Source: Gemmatimonadaceae bacterium (lineage in GTDB: Bacteria > Gemmatimonadota > Gemmatimonadetes > Gemmatimonadales > Gemmatimonadaceae). Taken from it: a stretch of DNA of 64,000 bases. A program made the position numbers and the translations under genes. The DNA is taken from contig DASUHB010000013.1 in the NCBI GenBank assembly GCA_036273715.1, forward strand, positions 1 through 64,000, given 5' to 3'. This document shows positions 1-5,027 of this stretch, piece by piece. The notes under the pieces were generated by a model, which saw only the letters and a program-made list of their open reading frames with translations, was not told the origin of the DNA and did no database searches. The stretch's first letter is position 1; every line of letters starts with the position of its first letter.

Positions 1-141
1 TGGCGCGTGCGAGACGATCTCCTTCGCGGAAAGTTGACGGGGCGCCGCGGCGACGATGGACGCTTCCAGATCGACCCAGAGTCCGCCGATCGCTATGTCA
101 CCGATCGCGCAGCACGTGAAAGTGCAGTGCCGGCGGCCTAA
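1..141 (+). CDS. HTH/excisionase-like DNA-binding protein, C-terminal fragment
   Basis: Frame 1 is open from the window edge to TAA at 139-141 and gives 46 residues. The pattern (basic stretch with LLRGKLTGRR, then FQIDPESADRYV) resembles the wing and last helix of MerR-type or excisionase-type winged-helix proteins. Such a protein next to an integrase module would fit a recombination directionality factor or an element regulator, but this is inference from a short fragment. The stop codon is supplied by a copy of the GCCTAACG motif at 136-143. The N-terminus is outside the window. Confidence 0.5.
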   Translation, partial: WRVRDDLLRGKLTGRRGDDGRFQIDPESADRYVTDRAARESAVPAA

Positions 142-246
142 CGACGAAACGCTCCTCGCGGCGACGGCTGCCACGAAGAGCGCTTCAGGAAGTACGGTCG
201 AGTGACCAGCTCGGCCATTCCCAAACCACCACGAGGAGGCTCCCTC

Positions 247-504
247 ATGATGACGCGTCAATTCTGCACCAGCGACCAGCGCCCGCGCAAGAGCGCCTCG
301 GGCAGCAACCACCTGTGCAACCGTGCGACCACGGTCACACTCGACGATCGCTATCTGGCTCGAAAGTGGTTCCTGCGTCGCGAGCGTCTCGCCCGCGAGC
401 GTGGCGAACCATCGATTCGCATCTCGCTGCGACTGGCGAGTGCGCTGCGTGCCATTCTCGTGCCCAGCCTGGGCGCACGCGAGGACACGGAGTCTGCCGC
501 ATGA
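247..504 (+). CDS. Small basic hypothetical protein
   Basis: 85 residues, rich in Arg, of no recognised family. An upstream GTG at 202 would add 15 residues, but the ATG at 247 follows a clear GAGGAGG ribosome site at normal spacing, so this start is preferred. The stop overlaps the next start as ATGA (501-504), so it is translationally coupled to the downstream genes of the integrative element. The basic composition would suit nucleic acid binding, but no motif supports this. Confidence 0.55.
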   Translation: MMTRQFCTSDQRPRKSASGSNHLCNRATTVTLDDRYLARKWFLRRERLARERGEPSIRISLRLASALRAILVPSLGAREDTESAA

Positions 505-2043: not shown

Positions 2044-3125
2044 CGGCAATCTGCGAACAGTGCCGCCTAACGCTGCACGAGTGCCAGTGGGGCGGGAACC
2101 ATCCGCCAAGCGCAAGCGCGGTCACGTCGGACCAAATCGCGGACGCGCTCCTGTCGCTCGAGCTGCACGCCGACTGCTACGTGCGCTGGCCGTGGGCCGC
2201 GCTCGATGACCTGTACGGTGGCATGGCACCGGGGACAGTGCACTACGTTGTCGCGTTCTCCGGCATGGGGAAATCGACCTTCATCGGATCCGCGACCTTG
2301 CGTTGGGCGGCGGTCGGTACCCGCGTTGATGTGATGCCGCTCGAGGTTCGCGCCAACACGTTCCGCACCTATCTGGCCTGCCAGTCGTTGGGCATCGACC
2401 CCGGTCTCATGCTCTCGGGCGATTTCTGGCGCCGCAAAGATGCGATCGAACTGCGCGAACGCGTGAGCGATGCCGTTCGATCACAGATCAAAGAGCCGTT
2501 CTTTTCTCGCGTGCAAGTGCACGGCGCGGCGGACATCTCGGCGGCCGGGTTACGGCGCGCGGCGCAGATCGCGCGAGAGCGGGGCGCCGAAGTGCTGGTC
2601 GTCGACCACATCGACCACGTGGAAGGCGACGCCGATCGGTGGCAATCGCAGTACGGGGCTAGTGTCCAAGTGAATCGCGAGGCACTCCGAATCGCACAGG
2701 ACACAGGCCTCGTGCTGATTTGCATGAGTCAAGCGAACCAGGCGGCGCTGTCGGGATCGCACGACCACCTCGCGAAGTACGCGCCCCTGCGCGATAATCA
2801 CGTGCTGAACGGTGGTCACAAGCGGCAGAATGCGACCGGCATGATCGGGCTATACCGGCCGCTCATCGCCGAGCCGGACAACGGCAGCCAGGCCGACGTC
2901 GAGGCGTTCAGGGAATCGATCCGCCTCGCACGCGCGGGCGCTCGAGAACCGCACACAGTACTCGAGCCGCGCACGATGGGCATCAACATCATGAAATCGC
3001 GAACCCACGGCGAGCGCGAGGGCAAGCGCATTGCCCTGACGTGGGACAATGGCCGCATCGTCGACCGCAGTACACTACCATACTCGCTCCGCGTTGTCGG
3101 CGGTGGAGAGCGCCGGCATGCCTAG
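2040..3125 (+). CDS. DnaB-like replicative helicase (RecA-fold) of the element
   Basis: 361 residues. After a Cys/His-rich start (CEQC...C...H, residues 5-22) comes a RecA-type ATPase: Walker A FSGMGKST at about 73-80, Walker B VLVVDH at about 185-190, then CMSQAN and a GHKRQNATGMIGLYRP segment like motif H4 of DnaB, and a C-terminal NIMKSRTHGEREGKRIAL stretch like the DnaB DNA-binding loop and last strand. It lacks the long N-terminal dimerisation domain of chromosomal DnaB and is shorter than the usual ~450 residues. The ATG overlaps the previous stop. With the DciA-like and O-like proteins it forms a minimal replication-initiation module. Confidence 0.75.
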   Translation: MTAICEQCRLTLHECQWGGNHPPSASAVTSDQIADALLSLELHADCYVRWPWAALDDLYGGMAPGTVHYVVAFSGMGKSTFIGSATLRWAAVGTRVDVMPLEVRANTFRTYLACQSLGIDPGLMLSGDFWRRKDAIELRERVSDAVRSQIKEPFFSRVQVHGAADISAAGLRRAAQIARERGAEVLVVDHIDHVEGDADRWQSQYGASVQVNREALRIAQDTGLVLICMSQANQAALSGSHDHLAKYAPLRDNHVLNGGHKRQNATGMIGLYRPLIAEPDNGSQADVEAFRESIRLARAGAREPHTVLEPRTMGINIMKSRTHGEREGKRIALTWDNGRIVDRSTLPYSLRVVGGGERRHA

Positions 3126-3294
3126 GATCGCCGATGCCGCCGCCGTCGGCGGAACGCGTGCAACGCGAGGCGAGCCCACGCTCACCGTGCAGTACGGCGC
3201 CGACGATCTGGACGTGCGCGTGTGGGCCGCCCAATATGTGCGCCACGTCCTCGCCGTCACTTCTGTGCCCGTTTTCCGAGAGCATCCGCTATGA
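3118..3294 (+). CDS. Very small hypothetical protein
   Basis: 58 residues starting at an ATG inside the last codons of the helicase gene (8-base overlap) and ending in an ATGA overlap with the recombinase start. No family recognised. Its place between two coupled genes and its codon pattern make it more likely real than the alternative longer start at 3049, which would run 77 bases into the helicase gene. No function is proposed. Confidence 0.45.
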   Translation: MPRIADAAAVGGTRATRGEPTLTVQYGADDLDVRVWAAQYVRHVLAVTSVPVFREHPL

Positions 3295-5027
3295 AGCCCG
3301 CTGTCACGCTGGCCGCGAGCCAGGCGTTCGGCGCGATCGGCTACTGTCGCGTCTCGACGGAATCGCAAGCGCGCGACGATCGGACATCACTCGCCGATCA
3401 ACGGCGTGCCATCGACGCGCTTGCGGCTCGCTTGGGCGTGACTCTCGAGGACGCCGCGCTCTTTGTCGATGCTGGCGCATCCGGCGCCGATGCTGAGGGG
3501 CGTCCGGCCTTCATGCGCCTCGTGTCGTACTGCGAAACGCACCGGCGCGCGATGCGGGCACCTGGCTTCGTTCTCGTCCTCAACGATTCGCGCTTTGGTC
3601 GCTTCCGCGATCCCGACGAGGCAGCCGCTTGGCGTTACCGCCTCAAACAGCACGGTTGGATCGTCCGGTTCGCGGAGTCCGATGACACCGCCGACCCGAT
3701 TGGCCGCAGCGTTCTCCGCGCAGTCGGTGCCGCGCAGGCATCGGAGTACCGCGCGAACATCTCGCGCAACGCGAAGCGCGGCGCGCGCGGCGCGGCGCAG
3801 CAAGGCTATTGGCTCAACGAAGCGCCGCTCGGATACCGGAGACTCGCAACAAGAAACGGCAAAGATCCCGTCGTGCTTGATCCAGGGCAGCGGAAGGCCG
3901 ATGATCAGAAGGTGCGGCTGACACCGGGGCCGGCGATCGAGCAGGAGTTGGTGCGGTTTCTCTACACGTCGTACGCGAGTGGCGAGTGGACGTTAGGCCG
4001 CCTCAAGCGCTTCATGCGCGATCCGAGCAACCCGTACGCGTCGATCCGGCGCCACTGGTCGAACGGGACGCTGCGCGCGATCCTCGTCAATCGGACCTAT
4101 GTGGGCGACGTCATCTGGTGCCGGCGGCCGCACGACAAGATCGAGCGCATGGAGACGCGCGTCCGGGACCGGGACCAGTGGGTGATCGCACCCGACGCGC
4201 ATCCTCCTCTCATCTCGCGCGAGTTATTCAACACGGTGGCAAGGCGGTTGAGCGCGAACGCGAAGCAGGTTCGGCGACCGGATGGTGCCTACGCGCTTAC
4301 CGGGTTGCTGACCTGTGCGCAATGTGGGTCGCCCTACGTCGGCGGCGGTGGTCCAAAGAACAAGAAGGATCCCACCGACCCGGATCGCTACCGCTTCTAC
4401 AAGGACAGTGGCGGCATGAACGATCGGAGTCTCTGTGCCGGTCGGTTAGGCACATTGCAGCGGCGATTCATCGAGCCGGCGGTGATCGATGTCATCGCCC
4501 AGGAAGTGCAGAAGCCGGCCGTGGCGTCGGCGATCGCAGAGGAATTAGACCGCGCACTCGAGTCGATGGCCGACACGAAGGCGTCTGAGCGCGCGCGTCT
4601 TGCACGTGAGCGGGACAAGCTCGTTGCCGAACGCGAGGCGGTCGTCCGTGCGGTCGCCCGCGGCGTGCTCACGGATGTGGAGGCCAGGGCGACGCTCACC
4701 GATCTCCGTGCCCGCATCGACGCCGCCTCGACGGCGCTCGAGCAAACTATGTTTTCGCAACGCGCGCAGACGACGCTCGCGTCTGAGCGCGACCGATTGT
4801 TGAAAGTCGCACAGGACTTCGGTGCCACGGTGCGGGCCCTCTCACCGGCCGCTCAGCGCGAACTCATCCGGCCATGGCTGGCTAACGCGGTGGTTGACAA
4901 GGAGAAACGGCAGGTGGTCCTCACGATTCGACGCGTTCCGGCGGTCGGTGGCTCTTTGCTGTTGTCAAGCTCGCCCCGGCCGATCGGAAAAAAGACGGGA
5001 CCGCCTTCGACCTCCCGATCGCGTTAG
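3291..5027 (+). CDS. Large serine recombinase (integrase)
   Basis: 578 residues. The N-terminal resolvase domain begins GYCRVSTESQ with the nucleophile at Ser22, followed by LNDSRFGRF and RANISRNAKRGA. A recombinase domain follows (LGYRR, then W..GTLRAILVNRTYVGDV), then a zinc-ribbon-like part with Cys near 341, 344 and 382, and a long coiled coil (about 420-540). This is the size of phiC31/Bxb1-type integrases that act on short att sites. The ATG overlaps the preceding stop. The C-terminal ~20 codons run through the att junction into comM, and the TAG stop lies in a comM-derived CGTTAGGC, so the C-terminus in the excised form should differ. Confidence 0.93.
   Translation: MKPAVTLAASQAFGAIGYCRVSTESQARDDRTSLADQRRAIDALAARLGVTLEDAALFVDAGASGADAEGRPAFMRLVSYCETHRRAMRAPGFVLVLNDSRFGRFRDPDEAAAWRYRLKQHGWIVRFAESDDTADPIGRSVLRAVGAAQASEYRANISRNAKRGARGAAQQGYWLNEAPLGYRRLATRNGKDPVVLDPGQRKADDQKVRLTPGPAIEQELVRFLYTSYASGEWTLGRLKRFMRDPSNPYASIRRHWSNGTLRAILVNRTYVGDVIWCRRPHDKIERMETRVRDRDQWVIAPDAHPPLISRELFNTVARRLSANAKQVRRPDGAYALTGLLTCAQCGSPYVGGGGPKNKKDPTDPDRYRFYKDSGGMNDRSLCAGRLGTLQRRFIEPAVIDVIAQEVQKPAVASAIAEELDRALESMADTKASERARLARERDKLVAEREAVVRAVARGVLTDVEARATLTDLRARIDAASTALEQTMFSQRAQTTLASERDRLLKVAQDFGATVRALSPAAQRELIRPWLANAVVDKEKRQVVLTIRRVPAVGGSLLLSSSPRPIGKKTGPPSTSRSR
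4950..4985. other. Right attachment junction (attR) between element and comM
   Basis: In the frame used by ComM, residues read ...[16 protein letters not shown]. The family consensus NLAPAD-(R/V)KK-(D/E)G is clean from LAPAD (about 4971) onward and breaks down just upstream, placing the crossover near 4955-4975. The exact core dinucleotide cannot be defined without the left junction, which is outside the window. Confidence 0.6.

Follow-up and report, generated by a model that had tools for sequence, protein, structure and literature searches.

In phage lambda, the origin of replication consists of iterons followed by an AT-rich tract and lies inside the initiator gene O, with the loader gene P in the same operon; lambda P borrows the DnaB of its host. 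Phage SPP1 is known to encode a complete set of initiator, loader and helicase (PMC5615212). The bacterial loader DciA has given way to phage DnaC/I-type loaders on at least seven occasions (PMC5109545). Here we describe a mobile element that is inserted in the comM gene of a Gemmatimonadaceae bacterium and carries a replication cassette in which the position of the loader is occupied by DciA. The right end of the element opens the stretch of DNA that was analyzed (the window), which spans positions 1 to 64,000 of contig C13 (DASUHB010000013.1) of a single metagenome-assembled genome (MAG), GCA_036273715.1 (81 contigs, 98.7% complete); position 1 of the window is the start of the contig (G000:C13:1). 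The whole case is a single instance in this one MAG.

The first 5 kb of the window contain, from left to right, orf85, orf136, dciA, genes for an initiator and a helicase, orf58 and the gene for a large serine integrase (Table 1). Neighboring genes of the cassette overlap by 1 to 8 bases, so that they form one overlapping operon. A sequence-only reading of this DNA had described three adjacent, overlapping loader, initiator and helicase genes followed by a large serine recombinase on an integrative element, and the families, positions and overlaps of these genes were confirmed. Profile searches, whose failure would have refuted that reading, placed DciA, DnaB_C and the integrase above their curated cut-offs. 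In families and adjacency, the initiator, loader-family and helicase genes have the arrangement of an SPP1-type cassette, with the loader role of DciA being predicted from sequence. Promoter and Rfam scans gave no match. We propose, with a probability of roughly 0.5, that the element is a temperate short-tailed (podovirus-like) prophage with a self-contained replication set, in which a captured DciA aids delivery of the helicase.

Assignment of the loader-family protein to DciA is based on its match to the DUF721 profile PF05258 (E-value 6e-13; 49.2 bits against a cut-off of 24, and 50 bits in the genome search). This genome is the only one among 60 related genomes with a second genuine full-domain DciA; second DciA-like matches in G027 and G030 were rejected since they fall within dnaX and an unrelated frame. 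The element DciA shares 67% identity with the DciA encoded elsewhere in its own genome and 74% with that of the congener G005 (host-genus range 67-74%), and phylogenetic analysis placed it inside the clade of the host genus with support of 98/97, on a branch of 0.39 compared to 0.01-0.03 for its sisters. Judged by these identities and this placement, the protein was captured recently from the host genus and is not an ancestral DciA, and the suggestion in the sequence-only reading of an ancestral DciA lineage on a mobile element is not supported. The ratio of nonsynonymous to synonymous substitution rates (dN/dS) against three host copies is 0.16-0.34, a value that includes the host branches, which suggests that dciA is under purifying selection and probably kept for use; the frame is intact and has a strong codon-position signature. 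It is quite improbable that dciA was carried along by accident, as a piece of host DNA gained by recombination and now decaying. Truncation of its N-terminus (see below) and its long branch would be expected of such a fragment, but the dN/dS value, the intact frame, the codon-position signature and the 4-bp overlap with the initiator gene all argue against decay.

The element DciA differs from its host counterparts at both ends. The N-terminal extension with the first helix is absent, as the PF05258 match starts at position 19 of 89 and the first ~26 residues of the host DciAs are missing. At the other end is a leucine-containing tail of ~25 residues, GRLEPLLELVREDHAPGLAEDTQA, which is absent from the Gemmatimonadota DciAs compared. 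In Caulobacter DciA, a leucine-bearing C-terminal extension makes the primary contact with DnaB (PMC9825169). An AlphaFold 2 (AF2) model of the element protein, with a predicted local distance difference test score (pLDDT) of 77 and 78-89 in the core, retains the KH-like alpha-beta-beta-alpha-beta core, and its best match in the PDB is DciA 7ykm (E-value 1.4e-4), followed by VcDciA 8a3v. The possibility that orf136 supplies the missing DciA helix via a frameshift was not supported (157/1000 and 366/1000 shuffles).

The helicase matches DnaB_C (PF03796; 39.9 bits against a cut-off of 27) and the DnaB-like helicase family phrog_19 (E-value 4e-19). No Pfam match to the DnaB N-terminal domain was found in this protein, and its score for TIGR00665 is 18.5 bits compared to the 385 required. 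Its N-terminus has zinc-finger-like residues (C5, C8, C15 and H21) that are conserved with the helicase of a second element on the same contig (element 2; Table 1). Alignments of positions 2040-2105 with relatives show that the helicase family begins with a zinc-finger-like C-x2-C...C...H instead of the DnaB N-terminal domain. A stretch preceding the core, SDQIADALLSLELH, aligns with the linker-helix region of the chromosomal DnaB of G023, as it does in all seven phage-type helicases; the G023 protein is the only correct host DnaB in this alignment, and the determinant helix is too diverged to judge. Since the linker-helix/determinant-helix module of DnaB is the site where DciA binds (PMC9912922) and a linker-helix-like stretch has been kept, a docking site for DciA may remain on the element helicase.

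The initiator matches PHROG families of phage replisome organizers and of DnaD-like and O-like proteins (E-values 3e-5 to 1e-4), and its N-terminal 96 residues are 47% identical to Pam1_56 of the Pseudanabaena phage Pam1. Its winged-helix N-terminus and the iterons inside its gene are those of an O-like protein or replisome organizer. The AT-richest 40 bp of window positions 1-5000 lie within this gene and directly follow a series of AAGGA/TCCTT repeats, and the region from 1580 to 1702 is a putative replication origin with a lambda-like arrangement. When repeats were scored against codon shuffles, stronger iterons were found in the initiator genes of element 2 (12-nt period, 0/400), a prophage of G026 (11-nt period, 0/400) and Pam1 (12-nt period, 1/400), and by this measure the placement of an apparent origin within the initiator gene recurs in Gemmatimonadota prophages and in phage Pam1. 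The repeat score of the G034 initiator gene was not significant (64/400), and this gene has perfect palindromes. With the same score, no such iterons were found in the helicase gene or other genes. Counted without the comM element, short iterons or palindromes were thus seen inside the initiator genes of four phage-type elements (L011:8268-8350, L029:3390-3446, L030:16481-16523 and L120:33812-33870).

The site of insertion was established from the two halves of comM. The ComM profile TIGR00368 is matched over positions 61-499 in the window and over positions 2-69 on contig C37, where the N-terminal match is located 2.6 kb from the start of the contig. The two junctions have the core CTCGC(A/C)CCGGCCG in common, joining the comM flanks across the element gives an unbroken ComM reading frame, and an uninterrupted comM stretch (the empty site) is found in three of five congeners (G001, G002 and G005; 79-88% identity). 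The element is therefore inserted in comM, with its right end in the window and its left end at C37:1-2640; the junctions were deduced from contigs and not from reads. Of the rest of the element, for which the sequence-only reading had proposed a search, the left end was thus located on C37, but the remaining middle is absent from the assembly, and the contig ends of C13 and C37 overlap no other contig. The left part of the element in the window is cut off by the assembly at the contig end and not by biology. That the window starts at a contig end in an MAG of 81 contigs could suggest an assembly chimera in which the contig end of another organism was joined to comM. This is very improbable, given that comM has a single break, its two halves were binned together and join into a perfect frame, the junctions have a common core and the DciA belongs to this genus.

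The integrase, for which position 3291 is a better start than 3222, has the Resolvase, Recombinase and zinc-ribbon domains and the short-core attachment (att) sites of a large serine integrase, and scores 218 bits with phrog_95. In the integrated form the protein has 578 residues, the last 14 of which are encoded by comM sequence. In the circular form the frame crosses the crossover and extends to 601 residues, with its stop codon one base before the start of a 124-residue left-arm gene (TGACATG). Reading of these frames indicates that integration swaps the last 37 residues of the circular-form integrase for 14 from comM. The attP site is inside the 3' end of the integrase gene (window:3291-5027 plus L012:2518-2644), and integration would therefore both alter the C-terminus of the integrase and split what would be one operon in the circle. 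The frame of the element 2 integrase likewise crosses its att core (546 residues versus 629). The left-arm genes (L012:1-2640, minus strand) are in the same direction as the N-terminal comM fragment and behind it, and might use the comM promoter.

In the proposed mechanism, the large serine integrase would insert the element into comM of a Gemmatimonadota host, and a single operon would produce the integrase together with the self-contained replication set. The O-like initiator would bind the iterons in its own gene (1580-1646) beside the AT-rich tract (1656-1702), and the element's own DnaB-type ring helicase would be brought to the melted origin. The small host-derived DciA would assist in delivery of the helicase, in the role of lambda P or SPP1 gp39.

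Several findings weigh against parts of this proposal, and those that concern its prophage nature involve the left arm and the missing middle. In the left arm, the gene for a 449-residue helical protein overlaps by 4 bp the gene that follows it, which encodes a Gly-rich protein of more than 262 residues. The pair is laid out in the same way as L105:5444-6529/6526-8580 of the G026 prophage, and the arrangement of the coiled-coil and Gly-rich proteins, which is like that of phage ejection genes, is suggestive. At the sequence level, the resemblance to the G026 pair does not exceed chance (35/500 and 58/500 shuffles), the left-arm proteins had no homologue in any collection searched, and the AF2 model of the 449-residue protein (pLDDT 51, helical) is unusable for a fold search. 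No terminase or portal was found in the MAG; a weak terminase-profile match in C66 was rejected since it sits among ordinary chromosomal genes. Any virion genes in the middle of the element would escape notice, as this part is not in the MAG. The sequence-only reading had considered the lack of virion genes as pointing to a possible satellite or integrative plasmid. Such an element would have no structural genes, and would integrate in comM, excise and replicate by its own cassette. The lack of terminase and portal genes would fit such an element, as would element 2, a complete reduced element in the same genome whose only trace of a virion is a cement-protein remnant and which shows that a reduced form of the cassette exists. 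The contig end cuts the view, however, the left-arm genes resemble ejection genes, and sister cassettes occur in full phages and prophages. Helicases of the same type in G026, G149 and G360 sit in prophages with a terminase, and with a portal in G026 and G149, while Pam1_56, the best relative of the initiator, belongs to a temperate cyanophage of 36 kb that has terminase, portal and needle genes. The occurrence of related helicases in real prophages and the ejection-gene-like layout of the left arm tip the balance towards a prophage. There is a good chance that the element is one, the virion genes of which would lie in the missing middle, and a satellite or plasmid is unlikely. IMG/VR scans with the helicase, two helicase alignments, DciA, a DciA alignment, the integrase and a left-arm protein as queries gave no relatives of the whole element, and a scan of GTDB genome contigs gave only the element 2 helicase of a congener.

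The remaining adverse findings concern the origin and DciA. The iteron score of the comM element was reached by 8 of 400 codon shuffles and is only moderately above chance. In the AF2 model, the DciA tail has no secondary structure and low confidence. Element 2 has a sister helicase that is 58% identical, and a related initiator, without any DciA. The element DciA is without the N-terminal region, and the delta 1-45 variant of Caulobacter DciA, which lacks this region, still binds DnaB but loses ssDNA binding and loading (PMC12547741). The truncation of the element DciA and its derivation from the host lead to the main rival to a loader role, in which the shortened DciA is a lure or inhibitor that binds host DnaB without loading it, and either stalls host replication or hands DnaB to the element, and in which the element helicase needs no loader. 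A DciA derived from this host genus should fit the host DnaB, and the cassette of element 2 would be expected if the helicase needed no loader. A decoy would not need the place that dciA occupies, however, where it is translationally coupled to the initiator and helicase of the element, and the host DciAs have no counterpart of the C-terminal tail. While the lure or inhibitor is thus the alternative to be taken most seriously, it is still rather unlikely. The position in the operon and the tail favor a re-tailed loader for the element helicase, and most likely the element DciA assists the element's own helicase.

Table 1. Location of the features of the comM element and of element 2; positions are those of the window unless a contig is named
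Feature	Position	Strand	Remarks
orf85	247..504	+	Small protein without assigned function; first visible gene of the operon; AGGAGG-like sequence upstream; ATGA overlap with next gene
orf136	501..911	+	Open reading frame; 1-base overlap with dciA (TGATG)
dciA	911..1207	+	ATG at 911; DUF721/DciA helicase-loader domain; PF05258
O/DnaD-like replication initiator	1204..2043	+	PHROG initiator families; winged-helix matches; similarity to Pam1_56
Putative origin iterons in initiator gene	1580..1646	.	AAGGA/TCCTT copies; 24-nt direct repeat, spacing 25; 17-nt inverted repeat
AT-rich tract, candidate unwinding element	1656..1702	.	62% AT in 40 bp
DnaB-type replicative helicase	2040..3125	+	Zinc-finger-like N-terminus; linker-helix-like stretch; RecA/DnaB_C core
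orf58	3118..3294	+	Small open reading frame without assigned function; overlaps both neighbors
Large serine integrase	3291..5027	+	PF00239, PF07508, PF13408, phrog_95
attR core CTCGCCCCGGCCG	4970..4982	.	Partner attL on contig C37 (L012:2632-2644, minus strand)
comM/yifB 3' part, interrupted host gene	4983..6295	+	TIGR00368; PF01078, 316 bits; N-terminal part on contig C37
Element 2	G000:C13:84454-95431 (L011:455-11432), same contig, outside the window		10.95 kb, complete; between 28-bp repeats of the 3' end of tRNA-Gln

For orf136, no Pfam family was found and no PHROG matched below an E-value of 0.07. Besides its initiator and helicase, element 2 encodes a tyrosine integrase, the cement-protein remnant, a large FtsX-like permease and a DsbA-like protein, and its helicase-integrase end is also present in the congener G004.

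No other mobile DciA was found in INPHARED (beyond chromosomal contamination), IMG/VR, PLSDB or PHROGs, with searches that reach close to moderate relatives only, so that distant phage DciAs could exist. Three INPHARED matches to host DciA were rejected because they resemble Bacteroides-type chromosomal contamination, with recF followed by the DUF721 gene and then by a C-terminal protease gene; the 'Bacteriophage sp.' records concerned are MT839010, MT838242 and MT836901 (L112, L113 and L114). A literature search found no paper on a phage or mobile DciA or on transfer of DciA from host to phage. The kind of cassette is already known, and what is new here is DciA in the seat of the loader, seen once. 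It is possible, though we hold this tentatively, that a phage took the host DciA, dropped the N-terminal part that binds ssDNA, added a tail, and re-paired the protein with a helicase of its own that lacks the DnaB N-terminal domain. If so, the element would provide the first known case of a mobile DciA, and the transfer would run opposite to the known direction, in which phage dnaC or dnaI is domesticated by bacteria that lose dciA. A trimmed host DciA beside a phage helicase would amount to a natural minimal DciA that could show which part of the protein binds, opens or loads the helicase. It also raises the question of whether phages use DciA fragments to disturb host replication.

Compared to described systems, the element is like lambda in having iterons and then an AT-rich tract inside the initiator gene and a loader-type gene in the operon, and unlike lambda in having its own helicase and a DciA. 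The SPP1 loader gp39 is, to our knowledge, not a DciA. SPP1 gp38 (replisome organizer), gp39 (loader) and gp40 (helicase) are likewise a phage-borne set that delivers the replisome to the phage origin (PMC5615212), but the protein in the position of the loader in the comM element is a host-derived DUF721 domain and its helicase is without the DnaB N-terminal domain. Genes 55-56 of Pam1, a phage with integrase and CI-like genes, likewise place an initiator with iterons in its gene beside a helicase; in Pam1 the DnaB-type helicase is longer (460 residues), the gene order is opposite and no DciA was found. Element 2 resembles the comM element in its helicase, related initiator, iterons and adjoining integrase, and differs from it in its tyrosine integrase, its tRNA-Gln site and the absence of DciA. 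Chromosomal DciAs of Gemmatimonadota, Caulobacter and Vibrio have the same DUF721/KH-like domain (folds 7ykm and 8a3v), whereas the element DciA is located on a mobile element, has lost the N-terminal helix and has gained a C-terminal tail. With regard to the insertion site, mobile elements in Acinetobacter are known to target comM, and loss of the gene in these bacteria reduces transformation with heterologous DNA; AbaR and other Acinetobacter comM islands likewise interrupt this gene, so that lower heterologous transformation would be expected here as well (PMC11472951). The best known comM islands are Tn7-like, while the element described here uses a large serine integrase.

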